The notes under the pieces were generated by a model that saw nothing but the letters and a program-made list of their open reading frames with translations, was not told where the DNA came from and ran no database searches. This document shows, piece after piece, positions 16,308 to 32,580 of a stretch of DNA of 64,000 nucleotides. The stretch spans positions 1-64,000 of the forward strand of contig NZ_AUAM01000015.1 in assembly GCF_000428725.1 (NCBI RefSeq), read 5' to 3'. Position numbers and translations under genes: made by a program. This DNA comes from Psychromonas aquimarina ATCC BAA-1526 (GTDB taxonomy: Bacteria > Pseudomonadota > Gammaproteobacteria > Enterobacterales > Psychromonadaceae). Each line of letters begins with the position of its first letter. The first letter of the stretch is position 1.

Positions 16308-18020
16308 ATGGTCGAGCGCACGCAAATATCTATTATTTCTCAATTGCAGCTGCTCGACCGACTGCAGCATCTTATCTACCTGTCTTCTTCTTTGATCTTC
16401 GTTTCCGGAGAAAAAGGAAGCGGTAAAAGCACACTTGCGCAGCTGCTTTCAAATAAGCTGCCGAATACTATTCAGCAGGTTTATGTGCAGTTAGCGGAAT
16501 CACTGTCAGATTCACAAATCAGGCAGCAGATATTATCGCAGTTATACGAACAGCCGTTATTTAATCCCCAGGATGATCTGTTCACTTCAATGTCGTTACT
16601 GCAAGAAAAACATAATAGCGATGCCGCGCGTTTAATTATACTGGACAATGCGCATTTAGTTTCTTTTGAGCTGTTAACTGAGTTATTACAGGTTATTTCA
16701 CAAAAAGAGCAGTTTGGTGACAATGAGGTTAATATCTTATTTCTTGCTGATGGTTCTAGCAATCAGCAGATGATGAGTTTAATCAAACAGGCTGAGCAAA
16801 AACAATTACGAAAATCTGCCTGTCTGGAGTTTAAATTAGAGCCCTTAGGCAGAGGTGAATCAACCGCCTTATTAAACCATATCTTTAAACAGTTCAGTTA
16901 TAAGCCGCAAATTGACCACCAGGATGCTTTATTAAAGCAGTTGAGTGCCTGTTCTGGGTCTCCGCAGAAAATAATTCAATTAGCTGAGGAAATAACAGCT
17001 GGGACATTAGAAAACAGTGAGCCCTCCTGGCTGAAAGCACGCCTCCCTGCGGTTCTATTAATGCTGTTTATGCTTCTTATTGTCGGCGGTCTTGGTACCT
17101 ACCTGTATCCGCATTTTATAACTTCAACACCTCCAGCAGTCGATTTTGAAGCAAATATTGAAGTTGAGAGTAAGCTTCTGGACGAAATTACAGACTCTGG
17201 GATTACTGCTGGCCAGGAGGTATCAACACCCGATGCTGAAGTTGAGGTACTGGCGGGAAGCTGGTCAAATTCTGAAAAAAAGCAGATAGAAAGCAGCCGC
17301 CTGCAGGTTGGGGATAGTGATCAGGCTGATAAACGAGTGACTATATCAGAGCAGCAGATATCAGCCTTGCCTGATTTTAAAGCGCTCCCTTCTGCAAATG
17401 AACAGGTTGAAATAACTCAACAGAAGCAAGAGACAAAAGTAGAACAAGTTAATGAAGACGGCTATTTAAGCAGGGACGAACAAGATGCAGGGGGGACTGA
17501 ACTTTTGCTGTCAGTCGTTACCCCTGTAGAAAAGCAGCAAAGTATTATAAGCAGTGCGGCCGCCACTGTGACTAAAAACGGACAAATTGAAAAGCCGCTC
17601 AACAGTGAAATTGTTATAGAAGAAACTATAAAAGCTAAGACAGTTCCAGTCGCTGTCGAAACTGCTCCGGTAAAAGTCCATGATGCAGTTAATAAGCCAG
17701 ATTATTACTCAGTTTTTACTGCGAGAGAGAGTTTATTTGCTGTAAAACCGTCTTTATACACCTTACAGCTGTCTGGTATGAGCTCAGAGCTAACTCTGCA
17801 GCGCTTTATATCTAAGCATCAGTTACCGCGAGAAAATGTTTATCTGTATCAGACTATACGTAATAAAAAACCTTGGTATGTCGTGATTTTCGGACAGTAT
17901 AAAAGTCTGCAGGAAGCTAGAGCAGCAGGTAAGAAGCTGCCGGGATCACTGGTTAATATGGACAGCTGGGCTAAAAAATATCAATCGGTACAACAGGATT
18001 TACGTTTAAATAATGAATAA
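16308..18020 (+). CDS. damX: DamX: AAA ATPase-like, membrane-anchored SPOR-domain protein
   Basis: A 570-residue cell-division protein. The cytoplasmic part (about 1-235) is an ATPase-like module with Walker A SGEKGSGKSTLAQ (about 32-44) and a Walker B-like RLIILDNAHL (about 105-114). A membrane segment lies at about 247-265. A long acidic, Glu/Gln-rich linker (about 270-475) leads to a C-terminal SPOR domain (about 483-560) beginning YTLQLSGMSS. SPOR domains bind denuded peptidoglycan glycans at the septum. The position aroB-damX-dam is conserved. The start ATG 16308 has little Shine-Dalgarno sequence and is probably coupled to aroB. Its C-terminal segment closely resembles that of the 28172-29887 protein. 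Confidence 0.93.
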   Translation: MVERTQISIISQLQLLDRLQHLIYLSSSLIFVSGEKGSGKSTLAQLLSNKLPNTIQQVYVQLAESLSDSQIRQQILSQLYEQPLFNPQDDLFTSMSLLQEKHNSDAARLIILDNAHLVSFELLTELLQVISQKEQFGDNEVNILFLADGSSNQQMMSLIKQAEQKQLRKSACLEFKLEPLGRGESTALLNHIFKQFSYKPQIDHQDALLKQLSACSGSPQKIIQLAEEITAGTLENSEPSWLKARLPAVLLMLFMLLIVGGLGTYLYPHFITSTPPAVDFEANIEVESKLLDEITDSGITAGQEVSTPDAEVEVLAGSWSNSEKKQIESSRLQVGDSDQADKRVTISEQQISALPDFKALPSANEQVEITQQKQETKVEQVNEDGYLSRDEQDAGGTELLLSVVTPVEKQQSIISSAAATVTKNGQIEKPLNSEIVIEETIKAKTVPVAVETAPVKVHDAVNKPDYYSVFTARESLFAVKPSLYTLQLSGMSSELTLQRFISKHQLPRENVYLYQTIRNKKPWYVVIFGQYKSLQEARAAGKKLPGSLVNMDSWAKKYQSVQQDLRLNNE

Positions 18021-28095: not shown

Positions 28096-28171
28096 TGTTT
28101 TCCCTCTTTATTATTTCTTTAACTATTATATGTAATTAACTGTGTTGTCACTATCTTCTTTGGACTTTGCT

Positions 28172-29887
28172 ATGTACCAGGAATTTTTTTCATTAAAAAC
28201 ACAACCTTTTTCTCTCTCTCCGGATCCCTCTTTTCTGTTTTTGAGTGAACGTCACAAAGAAGCGCTTGCACATCTCAGTCATGGATTAGAAGGCCGAGGC
28301 GGTCTGGTTCTATTAACGGGAGAGGTCGGTACCGGAAAAACAACTGTCTGTCGTTCGCTGCTTCAGGATCATGCAGAAAATACAGATATCGCTTTTATTT
28401 TAAATCCGGCATTAACTGAAGTTGAGTTAATAGAAGCTGTCTGTGATCAGTTTAAAATTGCCTATGATCCGGCTAATGTCTGTTTGAAAACATTATTAGA
28501 TTTATTAACGGAATGGCTGCTCAATAAGCATCAGCAGGGACATCGAGTTGTTATATTAATTGATGAAGCGCAGCATTTGAGTTTTCTGGATTTACAGCTG
28601 TTATCTGTATTAGCAGATATTGAAGCAGATAATAAAAAGGTACTGCAGGTCATTCTGATCGGCCAGACTGAACTGCAGCAGATGCTGAAACAAAGCGAAT
28701 TTCGCCAGTTAGCACAGCAGATTACAGCCCGTTATCATCTATTAGCGCTGACCCGGCAGGAAAGTGAGGATTATATTAATCATCGCTTAAATGTGGCTGG
28801 TGTATACGGGCCCGTTTTTGATAAGAGGGCTTTGTCTGTTATTTTTGAAGTCAGCGCGGGGATCCCGCGAATCATTAATCTGCTTTGCGATCGCAGTCTG
28901 CTGTGTGCATATGTACAGAATTCGTTAGCGGTAAACGCCGCTATGGTAAGAACAGCTGGTTTTGAGACTGAATTATTAGTTAAGCAGACTTTTTTCTTTT
29001 CTTCTCTTAAATATGTGCCTTTAGTTATTATATTAGTTTGTATAGGTCTACTGACGGTAAAGCTGGCTCCCTATGTTTCTGCCCGCTTTGGCGGTGCTGC
29101 AGTAATGGCTGAATCAAGCTCTGTACATATACCTGAATATATTGAAAATATTGAAAAAAGTGTGGGTAGGGAAATAAAACCTCGGCAGCAGTTGAATGCA
29201 GCACAGCTCGTTTATGTCACAAATTACTTTAGTGCCGAGACAGCGGCTGACGCTGATAAAGCAGGAGAGTTTAGCGTTCTTCCGTTAGTTGAGGCCGATA
29301 AAACAGAGTTCTTTAGTATGCTGCTGGTTGAGGAAAATACAGCTGGGCTGTTTACTGCCCAGGCGGCCGCTGTTACAAACAGCAGTGAGACGGCAGGTAT
29401 TCAGCCGATAGTAAAGAACAACGCAGAGGCTCTGCCTGTATCAATACAAGTTAATACTGTGCAAGCCGTTATAACAGCAGACAGTGTAGTGAAATCAACC
29501 TCTGAATCGAGTCTTGAACAAAAAAAACAACCTGTTGTTGAGGCGCAGAAATCTAGTGAAAGCCAAGCCCTAGAGCAGATGTTTACGCCAAGGGAGCTGC
29601 TGCTGGCCGTATCTCCCGGCGCATATACTGTGCAGTTATCTGGTTTTTCCTCTGCTGCCGCACTGCGCCGATTTTTTGTACAGCATAAGCTTCCTCGAGA
29701 TAACATTTATATTTATCAGACGCTGCGCAAGAATAAACCCTGGTATGTTGTTATTTCCGGTCAGTATCATGGTTTTAAAGTCGCCAGAGAGGCCGCTGAG
29801 CACTTGCCGGGTTCGCTGTTTGCTATGCCTTTCTGGATAAAAACATACCGGGATGTTCACAGGCAGGTGCATTTAAATGAACAATAA
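28172..29887 (+). CDS. ExeA/GspA-type AAA ATPase with DamX-like SPOR domain (chimera)
   Basis: A 571-residue protein starting at ATG 28172 (MYQEFFSLK, the same start as the next paralog; the frame extends upstream to 28142). Residues 1-265 are an ExeA-type AAA+ ATPase: Walker A TGEVGTGKTTVC (about 46-57), Walker B VVILIDEAQHLS (about 126-137), and sensor region FRQLAQQITARYHLL. A membrane segment is at about 279-297. The linker (about 300-470) is low-complexity, Ala/Thr/Glu/Val-rich. The C-terminus (about 475-571) is not the peptidoglycan-binding domain of ExeA but a SPOR domain starting YTVQLSGFSS, with KPWYVVISGQY, closely similar to the DamX C-terminus including flanking residues. Predicted bitopic: ATPase in the cytoplasm, SPOR in the periplasm. 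Role not known; septal peptidoglycan targeting is inferred. Confidence 0.88.
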   Translation: MYQEFFSLKTQPFSLSPDPSFLFLSERHKEALAHLSHGLEGRGGLVLLTGEVGTGKTTVCRSLLQDHAENTDIAFILNPALTEVELIEAVCDQFKIAYDPANVCLKTLLDLLTEWLLNKHQQGHRVVILIDEAQHLSFLDLQLLSVLADIEADNKKVLQVILIGQTELQQMLKQSEFRQLAQQITARYHLLALTRQESEDYINHRLNVAGVYGPVFDKRALSVIFEVSAGIPRIINLLCDRSLLCAYVQNSLAVNAAMVRTAGFETELLVKQTFFFSSLKYVPLVIILVCIGLLTVKLAPYVSARFGGAAVMAESSSVHIPEYIENIEKSVGREIKPRQQLNAAQLVYVTNYFSAETAADADKAGEFSVLPLVEADKTEFFSMLLVEENTAGLFTAQAAAVTNSSETAGIQPIVKNNAEALPVSIQVNTVQAVITADSVVKSTSESSLEQKKQPVVEAQKSSESQALEQMFTPRELLLAVSPGAYTVQLSGFSSAAALRRFFVQHKLPRDNIYIYQTLRKNKPWYVVISGQYHGFKVAREAAEHLPGSLFAMPFWIKTYRDVHRQVHLNEQ

Positions 29888-30106
29888 AAAATTACTGCGT
29901 TTGTAATCAGGTGAGGAATAAACAATAACGAGACCGTGCAGGGCAGCTCCTTCTTGAGCTAGCTCCGTTCTCCGGTTGATTATTGACTGAATAAATTGCT
30001 CTTGAACGGTATTGTCGATTAAAATAGTTGCATTGTTTTCCTGCGCTGTTATTGCGGGGCTGACGGGCAGTTAACTCCGCTGCCGCTATTTTCTTTAGGC
30101 TTTGTA
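29888..30106. other. 219-bp gap between the two exeA-type genes
   Basis: It contains no convincing gene; the minus-strand frame at 29907-30278 runs into the ATPase gene and is a shadow. A possible weak promoter is TTGCTC (29996-30001) with TAAAAT (30020-30025), 18-base spacing, which would give exeA/gspB a transcript separate from the chimera. Confidence in the promoter is low. Confidence 0.3.
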
Positions 30107-31735
30107 ATGTATCAAGAATTTTTCTCTTTAAAAGAACAACCTTTTTCGATTTCTCCAGATCCTGATTTTCTGTTTTTAAGCGAACGTCACAAAGAAGCGC
30201 TTGCGCATTTACAGTATGGTCTGCAGGGTAACGGCGGTTTTGTACTTTTAACAGGTGAAGTTGGAACAGGCAAAACAACTGTGTGCCGTTCTTTACTGCA
30301 GAACCTGTCTACAGATACGGATATTGCATTTATTCTTAATCCGGCATTAACTGAAATAGAGCTGTTAGCGACGGTTTGTGATGAATTTAAGATTGAATAC
30401 GACAAAGATAAAACCAGCTTAAAACTGTTATTTGATGCACTAACTGCCTGGATGATGAACAATCATCTGCAGGGACGAAGTGCAATTGTATTAATCGATG
30501 AAGCACAGCATTTAAGCTTTTCTGTATTAGAACAGCTGCGTTTATTAACTAATATCGAATCGAATAATAAAAAACCCCTGCAGGTTATTTTAATCGGACA
30601 GACTGAACTGCAGCAGAAGTTAAAACAAACTGAACTTCGTCAGCTTGCACAGCGAATTACCGCTCGTTACCACCTATTGCCCTTAAGCCGCCAGGAAAGT
30701 GAATATTATATCCTGCATCGCCTTAATGTCGCAGGTGCGCGTTTCCCTATTTTTGAGCGTAATGCTTTAAAACATATCTATAAATCAAGTCAGGGAATTC
30801 CACGGTTAATTAACTTGTTGTGCGACCGCTGTTTATTATGTGCCTACACACAAAACGTGCCTAAAGTAACCGTGCCTGTGGTGAAGAAAGCCTGTGTTGA
30901 AATGGAATTAAGCGAAAATAACGGCTCTTTTATTATTAATAACTGGCGAATAACCACGCTGATTGTTTTATGTCTGTTAACCGGGATACAGGCACCACAA
31001 ATACTTGCTCGTTTTAATGATGCGCGGCCGGCAGCTGCAGCAGAGCAGGAAAGCCCGTTGTTAGAGGAGGTAAAGCAGGTAAGTGAGCCGGAAATTCAAG
31101 CGCCGCCGGTTAAACAGGCTGCGCAGTGGTTTGATGCTTATCCTGATTTACAGTTATCCAATGCATCTTTTGATAATGCTCTGCTGAACTTATATGCGGT
31201 GTGGGGATATCAGGCTGATATTGACACTGTAGACTGCGGACAGGGTGAAGGTGCGCTGCTGTCCTGTTACTCGATAAACAGCAGTTTAAAAAAACTAAAA
31301 AAATTAAATTATCCCAGTATCATTAAGTTAGAAAACAATGCGCAGGATAGTTTGTATGCGGTTCTTTATAAAATCAGTGATAAATACCAGCTTCTGATCG
31401 ACGGACAGGTTATAAGGGTTTCTGAAAGCTGGTTTAATCAGTATTGGACGGGTAATTTAACACTTCTATGGCAGGCTCCGTTTGCAGAGCAGAAAGTACT
31501 TAAATTTGGTCAGCAGAATGAGCAGGTAGCCTGGTTAGTAACACAGCTTAATAAGGTGCAGGGGTTGGCTAGAGAGGATAAAGATCGTTTTGATCTGCAG
31601 CTGCTGCAGCAGGTAAGCACTTTTCAAAGGGCGCAGGGGCTGTCAGATGATGGTCTCGTTGGTTTTCGGACTATGATGCCGTTGATGCAGTTAGCTAACC
31701 CGGAACTGCCTCGTTTGATGGAGAGCAGTAACTAA
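30107..31735 (+). CDS. gspA: General secretion pathway protein A (ExeA/GspA)
   Basis: A 542-residue ExeA-type protein. AAA+ ATPase at 1-265 with TGEVGTGKTTVCRSLL (about 46-61) and AIVLIDEAQHLS (about 126-137); membrane segment at about 281-299; a periplasmic region (about 335-460) resembling the C39-peptidase-like part of GspA (ALLNLYAVWGY, LKKLNYPSIIKL, LTLLWQAP); and a C-terminal peptidoglycan-binding domain (about 465-535: VSTFQRAQGLSDDGLVGFRTM). In Aeromonas ExeA with ExeB binds peptidoglycan and ATP and is needed to assemble the ExeD secretin of type II secretion. It is paralogous to the preceding gene over the first ~265 residues. It is coupled to gspB by a TAATG overlap. Confidence 0.93.
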   Translation: MYQEFFSLKEQPFSISPDPDFLFLSERHKEALAHLQYGLQGNGGFVLLTGEVGTGKTTVCRSLLQNLSTDTDIAFILNPALTEIELLATVCDEFKIEYDKDKTSLKLLFDALTAWMMNNHLQGRSAIVLIDEAQHLSFSVLEQLRLLTNIESNNKKPLQVILIGQTELQQKLKQTELRQLAQRITARYHLLPLSRQESEYYILHRLNVAGARFPIFERNALKHIYKSSQGIPRLINLLCDRCLLCAYTQNVPKVTVPVVKKACVEMELSENNGSFIINNWRITTLIVLCLLTGIQAPQILARFNDARPAAAAEQESPLLEEVKQVSEPEIQAPPVKQAAQWFDAYPDLQLSNASFDNALLNLYAVWGYQADIDTVDCGQGEGALLSCYSINSSLKKLKKLNYPSIIKLENNAQDSLYAVLYKISDKYQLLIDGQVIRVSESWFNQYWTGNLTLLWQAPFAEQKVLKFGQQNEQVAWLVTQLNKVQGLAREDKDRFDLQLLQQVSTFQRAQGLSDDGLVGFRTMMPLMQLANPELPRLMESSN

Positions 31736-32580
31736 TGTCGACAATTTTACAAGCATTACAGAAACAGCAGGCGAATCAGAACACTCAGGTTCACGATAAT
31801 ATGCTCTTAGAAAGTGATAATTTAAAATGGAAAGCTGCATTATTAACGGCGCTGCTAGTCATTATCTGCTTATTAGGTATATTGATTTATATGCAGTTTA
31901 ACCCTGTTAACAGAGAAAGTACTGAGCAGGCCGTTATTGCTCCGCAGAAAACAGAGAAAGTGCGCATTGCTGAGCCCGTCAGCGGTGCTGAAAATGCACA
32001 GAAAGTGAGTATCGATAAATCCGACAGTAGAAATGATAAACCTGTTGTTCAGAAATTAACTTTTGTGACCAAACCGCTGCCTGAGGTAAAAGAACTGGAG
32101 CCTGCACAGCTTATTCTGTCGGCGCAAAAAGAGCAGATACCAGTGGTACGGGAAAACAACAGTAATGCAGCGCATAAATCCGCGCCGCCAGAGCCGGTGC
32201 CGGAAAAAACATCGCAGGAGCTGGATTACAGCGGGGTATCTGATGATTTACAGAAGCGTTTTAAACAGGCCGTATTAGAGAGCCGGGACGCTTCTAATAG
32301 TCCTGAAATTGAGGAGGAGCAAGCTGGTGACGGCAGTGATATTCATCAGATGGGTTATGCATTTCAGGAAAAAGTTCCAGCCATGAGCTATGACTTCCAT
32401 GTGTATTCTACTATTGCTGAAGACCGCTGGATCCGTATTAATGGTGAAGACTTACGTGAAGGGCAGTCTGACGCAGACGGGACAATTAAACTTATTGAAA
32501 TTCAGCCGCAGCGCAGTATATTTCGCATAGGAAGACAGAGCTTCAGCCTTGAGTCATTAACGGACTGGAAAGGTTATTAA
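31735..32580 (+). CDS. gspB: General secretion pathway protein B (GspB/ExeB)
   Basis: A 281-residue bitopic inner-membrane protein: the N-terminal MSTILQALQKQQ typical of the family, a membrane segment (about 34-56), a long Glu/Pro/Lys-rich periplasmic linker, and a C-terminal T2SSB-type domain (about 215-281) with YDFHVYSTIAEDRWIRING and FRIGRQSFSLESLTDWKGY. It partners GspA in secretin insertion. No other type II secretion genes are in the window, so the substrate secretin must be elsewhere; PilQ, encoded about 18 kb upstream, is a secretin but has no known link to GspAB. Confidence 0.9.
   Translation: MSTILQALQKQQANQNTQVHDNMLLESDNLKWKAALLTALLVIICLLGILIYMQFNPVNRESTEQAVIAPQKTEKVRIAEPVSGAENAQKVSIDKSDSRNDKPVVQKLTFVTKPLPEVKELEPAQLILSAQKEQIPVVRENNSNAAHKSAPPEPVPEKTSQELDYSGVSDDLQKRFKQAVLESRDASNSPEIEEEQAGDGSDIHQMGYAFQEKVPAMSYDFHVYSTIAEDRWIRINGEDLREGQSDADGTIKLIEIQPQRSIFRIGRQSFSLESLTDWKGY

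Follow-up and report, generated by a model that had tools for sequence, protein, structure and literature searches.

What does a protein do that joins the motor half of GspA/ExeA to the wall-binding tail of DamX, and whose gene stands beside gspA-gspB? The question is raised by a gene in contig NZ_AUAM01000015.1 of Psychromonas aquimarina ATCC BAA-1526, of which positions 1 to 64,000 were analyzed (this whole stretch of 64,000 nucleotides is called the window below). The gene adjoins cca and lies upstream of gspA-gspB. Its product is a chimera, in which a DamX-type SPOR tail follows a GspA-type N-terminal half that extends through the membrane segment. An earlier sequence-only reading had described such a protein and suggested that it could localize ExeA-like activity, possibly secretin assembly, to division sites. 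The analysis demonstrates the protein's architecture, a tail of DamX type, retained glycan contacts, linkage to gspAB and purifying selection on the gene. The function of the protein can be discussed in terms of more and less probable readings.

In a Pfam hmmscan of the chimera, AAA_22 was found at residues 42-172 (6.5e-23) and SPOR at residues 481-546 (7.5e-8, above the cut-off). GspA_C39-like and PG_binding_1, both of which are present in the adjacent GspA, are missing (Pfam, among the 25/26 families listed at E up to 0.1). The scan thus agrees with the sequence-only reading on the loss of the two periplasmic domains and on the SPOR end. Among the NCBIfam models, the ExeA-like TIGR03015 matches residues 1-260 (1.1e-72, under the whole-protein cut-off), and the DamX model NF008153 is the sole SPOR-protein model matched, at residues 427-563 (1.6e-9). 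With 37.4 bits versus a cut-off of 256, the chimera is not a whole-protein member of this DamX equivalog. Similarity to GspA extends across the membrane segment. In a structure model the linker that follows has no confident structure; the mean predicted local distance difference test score (pLDDT) is 46 for the whole model and 89 for the SPOR domain. An in-frame GTG at 28142 precedes the ATG by 30 nucleotides, and alignments of homologues begin at MYQ.

The N-terminal half had been regarded as a paralogue of the adjacent GspA with the same MYQEFF start and Walker motifs, and it is: identity is 63% over residues 1-320, and the protein has the ExeA-type AAA domain with both Walker motifs intact. 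The description as an ExeA-like ATPase holds for these motifs and does not hold for two arginines (positions 145 and 183 in chimera numbering) that are near-invariant in GspA/ExeA. Both are also present in all 44 of the short ATPase rows of the alignment, in which some genomes are counted twice. They are replaced by serine and glutamine in both members of the window lineage, i.e., in the window protein and its orthologue from P. ossibalaenae (G006), whereas chimeras of a second Psychromonas lineage have both arginines. The two arginines may be sensor or finger residues. Given their loss, the window-lineage chimera probably serves as a targeting subunit and is not a strong ATPase. Among the 40 DamX rows shown, a Walker B pattern was recognised in 18, and its glutamate is absent in 17 of these. 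In another genus of the order, G034, G058 and G077 (L126, L127 and L128) have a second GspA paralogue with lysine and glycine in place of the two arginines; this paralogue retains the periplasmic half.

The tail was said to resemble, flanks included, the DamX encoded about 10 kb away (10.15 kb from the end of DamX at 18020 to the start of the chimera). The two are indeed 53% identical across 102 residues, flanks included, with a score of 116 bits. Shuffled tails reached 25 bits at most (488/500 shuffles gave any match), and a chance similarity is ruled out by this comparison. The only match in a PDB sequence search with E up to 0.01 was 2LFV, the E. coli DamX (4.1e-8). Residues Q488, R519, W555 and K557 of the chimera correspond to the glycan-contact residues Q351, R380, W416 and K418 of DamX, so the SPOR fold comes with its conserved glutamine and its aromatic and basic contacts. 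Six SPOR matches of the genome exceed the cut-off, among them the chimera and DamX. In a tree of SPOR domains the chimera tail falls on the DamX side, apart from three further SPOR domains that this genome encodes (support 91/80, long branches; the fourth, L005, was excluded). The tail therefore belongs to the DamX type and does not group with unrelated SPOR domains, in agreement with the NF008153 and 2LFV matches. The nearby DamX is a relative of the tail and not the source of a recent copy, as the identity is only 53% and DamX tails of other Psychromonas score about equal to it against the chimera tail; the SPOR tree gives the tail no firm position.

The idea of a swap between two families stands in that a GspA half has been joined to a DamX tail. 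It needs one correction: DamX itself consists of an AAA domain, a membrane segment, a linker and SPOR, so the swap recreates the DamX layout with a GspA motor. The chimera has the C-terminal SPOR domain of DamX and has neither the DamX-type AAA domain nor the aroB-damX-dam locus: its AAA domain is closest to GspA, its locus is cca-gspA, and a separate DamX is present at aroB-dam in the same genome.

Table 1. Features of the chimera gene and related genes, in positions of the window
Feature	Position	Strand	Evidence
ExeA/GspA-DamX chimera gene	28172..29887	+	571 aa, ATG start MYQEFF; AAA_22 + SPOR in Pfam
GspA/ExeA-type AAA domain, residues 1-270	28172..28981	+	AAA_22 6.5e-23; TIGR03015 1.1e-72, below cut-off
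Walker A GEVGTGKT, residues 50-57, intact	28319..28342	+	alignment
Walker B LIDE, residues 129-132, intact	28556..28567	+	alignment
Residue 145, S where 88/92 GspA rows have R	28604..28606	+	alignment
Residue 183, Q where 86/92 GspA rows have R	28718..28720	+	alignment
Membrane segment, ~residues 281-302	29012..29077	+	top five hydrophobic 19-residue windows start at 276-284
Low-complexity periplasmic linker with fusion junction, residues 303-469	29078..29578	+	fast-evolving
DamX-type SPOR domain with flanks, residues 470-571 (Pfam core 481-546)	29579..29884	+	Pfam, PDB match, alignment
Canonical GspA	30107..31735	+	AAA_22 + GspA_C39-like + PG_binding_1
GspB, overlaps gspA end	31735..32580	+	T2SSB 2.4e-20; NF037978 below its cut-off
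DamX, family resembled by the C-terminal half of the chimera	16308..18020	+	AAA_22 + SPOR

The sequence-only reading had called for a survey of this layout beside gspA-gspB. We found the chimera in 6/24 genomes of the family, all from Psychromonas, a genus of cold-sea bacteria: P. aquimarina (G000, the window genome), P. ossibalaenae, P. hadalis (G003), P. marina (G005), Psychromonas sp. Urea-02u-13 (G011) and G010. It lies beside cca in all six carriers and directly upstream of gspA-gspB in five of them (unbroken contigs). A profile of the six proteins was compared with 394 genomes of the order and gave full-length matches (1-450 of 451, at least 769 bits) in six, all Psychromonas; the next matches listed are GspA with at most 517 bits, none of them past profile position 419. 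For the 370 order genomes outside the family there is no full-length chimera match among the matches listed (to 5.6e-105). In the class sample, for which the list of matches is complete, the full-length match is the window's own (1/369). In both surveys no more than three candidates were scored per genome, and a chimera with a SPOR tail different from those of the profile alignment would have escaped them. A search with ATPase-half patterns retained 80 of 90 relatives. A scan of 145 loci revealed strong ATPase and SPOR signals together in only four loci, those of four of the six carriers. Second copies of the ExeA-type ATPase in seven other genomes of the order all have, by inspection, a GspA-type periplasmic half; G310, which also has a second ExeA-type match, was left out of this inspection. 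In G019 the place of the chimera upstream of gspA is occupied by a 299-residue gene for an AAA domain and a membrane segment (L055:3197-4096) with D for E in Walker B; no SPOR frame is present downstream of it. It is either a truncated or a pre-fusion relative of the chimera.

The related families vary as well. Several DamX genes outside Psychromonas likewise match DamX at both ends. DamX without the ATPase half (311 and 286 residues) and DamX split into frames of 260 and 110 residues occur in G004, G012 and G009 (L062, L070, L067). G014 (L072:4479-6514) has the aroB and dam neighbours with damX missing, and a whole-genome DamX search gave no match at 1e-8. A 753-residue GspA frame in G098 (L139) has a C-terminus that is GspB-like by eye, which would make it a GspA-GspB fusion.

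The carriers fall into two separate clades of the species tree (21 genomes, seven genes; G015, G019 and G020 were excluded), {G000, G006} and {G003, G005, G010, G011}, which implies either that the chimera was gained twice or that a single gain was followed by losses. The separate trees of the two halves, suggested by the sequence-only reading, place the tail on the DamX side and do not settle the number of origins: a single one is neither shown nor rejected by them. When the chimeras of both lineages were forced into one clade, the P value of the approximately unbiased test (p-AU) was 0.36 in the cleaned ATPase-half tree and also 0.36 in the SPOR-half tree. The first ATPase-half tree, which contained damaged outgroup rows and long G019 rows, had given 0.065 (six rows) and 0.18 (seven rows with G019). 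Forcing the chimera together with its own GspA gave 0.051 (first tree) and 0.24 (cleaned tree) for the window lineage, and 0.11 and 0.40 for the other lineage; forcing the chimera SPOR together with its own DamX gave 0.30 and 0.33.

The gene is under selection yet is less constrained than gspA. Between G000 and G006 the ratio of non-synonymous to synonymous substitution rates (dN/dS, Nei-Gojobori, without confidence interval) is 0.30 for the chimera overall, namely 0.15 for the ATPase, 0.58 for the membrane segment and linker (residues 271-470) and 0.19 for SPOR. The corresponding values are 0.065 for GspA, 0.19 for DamX and 0.22 for GspB. In the other lineage dN/dS is 0.06-0.12 in the 4/6 pairs for which it was computable, a rough estimate since dS is saturated (1.8-3.5). 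The frame is open in all six carriers, and a decaying frame is disfavoured by these values. It is therefore highly improbable that the chimera is a functionless relic of a duplication, although it evolves faster than GspA (identity of 77% versus 95% between G000 and G006, with GspB also at 78%) and G019 has only a piece without SPOR.

We tentatively favour the reading in which the chimera, a GspA paralogue with the wall-binding half of DamX, serves GspAB as an accessory subunit anchored to the septal wall. According to published accounts, GspA has a peptidoglycan-binding domain and acts with GspB (PMC9239104), and ExeA interacts with peptidoglycan and is needed together with ExeB for the assembly of ExeD (PMC4098917). 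Under the favoured reading, gspA would have been duplicated beside gspA-gspB, and its periplasmic C39-like and peptidoglycan-binding domains would have been swapped for a SPOR tail from a Psychromonas DamX. The AAA domain and the membrane segment would still associate with GspA and GspB in the inner membrane, the SPOR domain would anchor the GspAB complex to denuded septal glycan, and the assembly of secretins would start at the division site, so that they would be built into new poles. The sole support for the putative complex with GspB and for a role in secretin assembly is the position of the gene. Septal placement of the assembly by SPOR is plausible by analogy, because a Legionella secretin, LspD, has a SPOR-like domain in a type II secretion system (T2SS) without GspA/GspB (PMC9239104), and because pilus machinery (PilQ and PilMNOP) is recruited to future division sites (PMC5285504). 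A more specific version, which we regard as somewhat unlikely, would have a dedicated septum-seeking GspAB subunit, in which a reader of denuded glycan has replaced a general peptidoglycan-binding domain, tie T2SS secretin assembly to division, so that nascent poles receive their secretins in advance; in the window lineage the working unit would be mixed rings of the full GspA motor and the arginine-poor chimera.

Several observations weigh against a role in secretin assembly. The chimera is lacking in 16 of the 22 family genomes with gspA; one of the 16 is G019, whose gene is truncated, and no gspA was seen in G015 and G020. The chimera is thus dispensable for basic secretin assembly, for which the canonical GspA and GspB are at hand. 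Carriers have 3-4 secretin matches versus 1-5 in other genomes of the family, hence no additional secretin tracks the chimera. The chimera gene and gspA are separated by 219 nucleotides with a single weak terminator-like match (+ strand, 30066-30084), which makes a shared transcript no more than possible. In the open-licence literature searched, as far as its text was available, we found no experiments on the chimera protein, nor a description of this Psychromonas gene or of any GspA paralogue with SPOR. The nearest experimental precedent, PA5037 of P. aeruginosa, runs counter to a secretin role: its deletion leaves PilQ multimers normal (PMC6321873). This protein is annotated as ExeA-like (PMC6321873) and is described as a SPOR-containing homologue of E. 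coli DamX (PMC9712689), so an ExeA-like SPOR protein is of the DamX kind.

The main rival is a DamX-like division role. The chimera would be a second DamX, a regulator of division or peptidoglycan synthesis with a GspA-type AAA domain, and its gspAB neighbourhood would be no more than a scar of tandem duplication. We consider this unlikely, although the layout is that of DamX and the AAA_22 of DamX itself keeps a division role possible. E. coli DamX is reported to stimulate PBP1A and PBP1B (PMC7642682), and with the Walker B glutamate lost in 17 of the 18 DamX motifs recognised and ATPase residues lost in the window chimera, both proteins resemble motors turned anchors. On the other side, a full-length DamX (536-572 residues, aligned from residue 1 to the window DamX) is kept in all six carriers, the Walker motifs of the chimera are intact, its second lineage has both arginines, and the gene is still at the cca-gspA locus in both lineages. 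Assistance to a type IV pilus or the mannose-sensitive haemagglutinin (MSHA) system instead of the T2SS seems quite unlikely. An ExeA-type ATPase frame of 301-307 residues stands next to a secretin in all six carriers versus 5/18 other family genomes, and we take this pair to be MshM-MshL. The carriers form only two lineages, so this association reflects at most two independent events, and the chimera gene is located with gspAB, away from the pilus secretins. The precedent for such an assistant is again PA5037: twitching is reduced in both its deletion and transposon mutants, and the latter has fewer polar pili (PMC6321873). The chimera could also act as a decoy, either dominant-negative or regulatory: lacking the C39-like and peptidoglycan-binding parts of GspA, it would enter GspA rings and lower their activity. 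The window lineage, with its nucleotide-binding motifs retained and both arginines lost, would suit this role, but the other lineage retains the arginines, and a mere decoy would not need a tail that is under selection and has conserved SPOR contacts; we thus find a decoy very unlikely.

The septal-subunit reading bears on the question of how large secretins pass through peptidoglycan without dedicated hydrolases, which is open. For type IVa pili, installation at the division site has been proposed as an answer (PMC5285504). For the T2SS the chimera offers a natural experiment, being present or absent within one genus and adjoined by an ordinary GspA. The layouts of DamX and GspA (AAA, one membrane pass, linker, wall-binding domain) are close enough for an exchange of halves, which suggests that DamX-type AAA proteins and ExeA be treated as one mechanistic class.

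Compared with known systems, the chimera amounts to a lineage-specific variant derived from two known families. It shares with GspA/ExeA the AAA_22 domain, Walker motifs, membrane segment, MYQEFF start and gspA-gspB locus; GspA/ExeA differs in having C39-like and PG_binding_1 domains and no SPOR, and in keeping the two arginines lost in the window lineage. The domain content of GspA and GspB is variable (PMC9239104), and known GspA variants, such as GspAB fusions and the GspA of Alteromonas and Pseudoalteromonas without a periplasmic region, illustrate this plasticity; none with SPOR is mentioned in the part of that source available to us. DamX of the E. coli type, including PA5037, likewise combines AAA_22 and SPOR in one protein and has the same glycan-contact residues, while its AAA half is of the DamX type, its locus is aroB-dam and its Walker B glutamate, kept in the chimera, is absent from 17 of the 18 motifs read. 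Legionella LspD, as described in PMC9239104, also places SPOR on a T2SS component; there the domain is N-terminal in the secretin and the system has no GspA/GspB, whereas in Psychromonas it is carried by a GspA paralogue.
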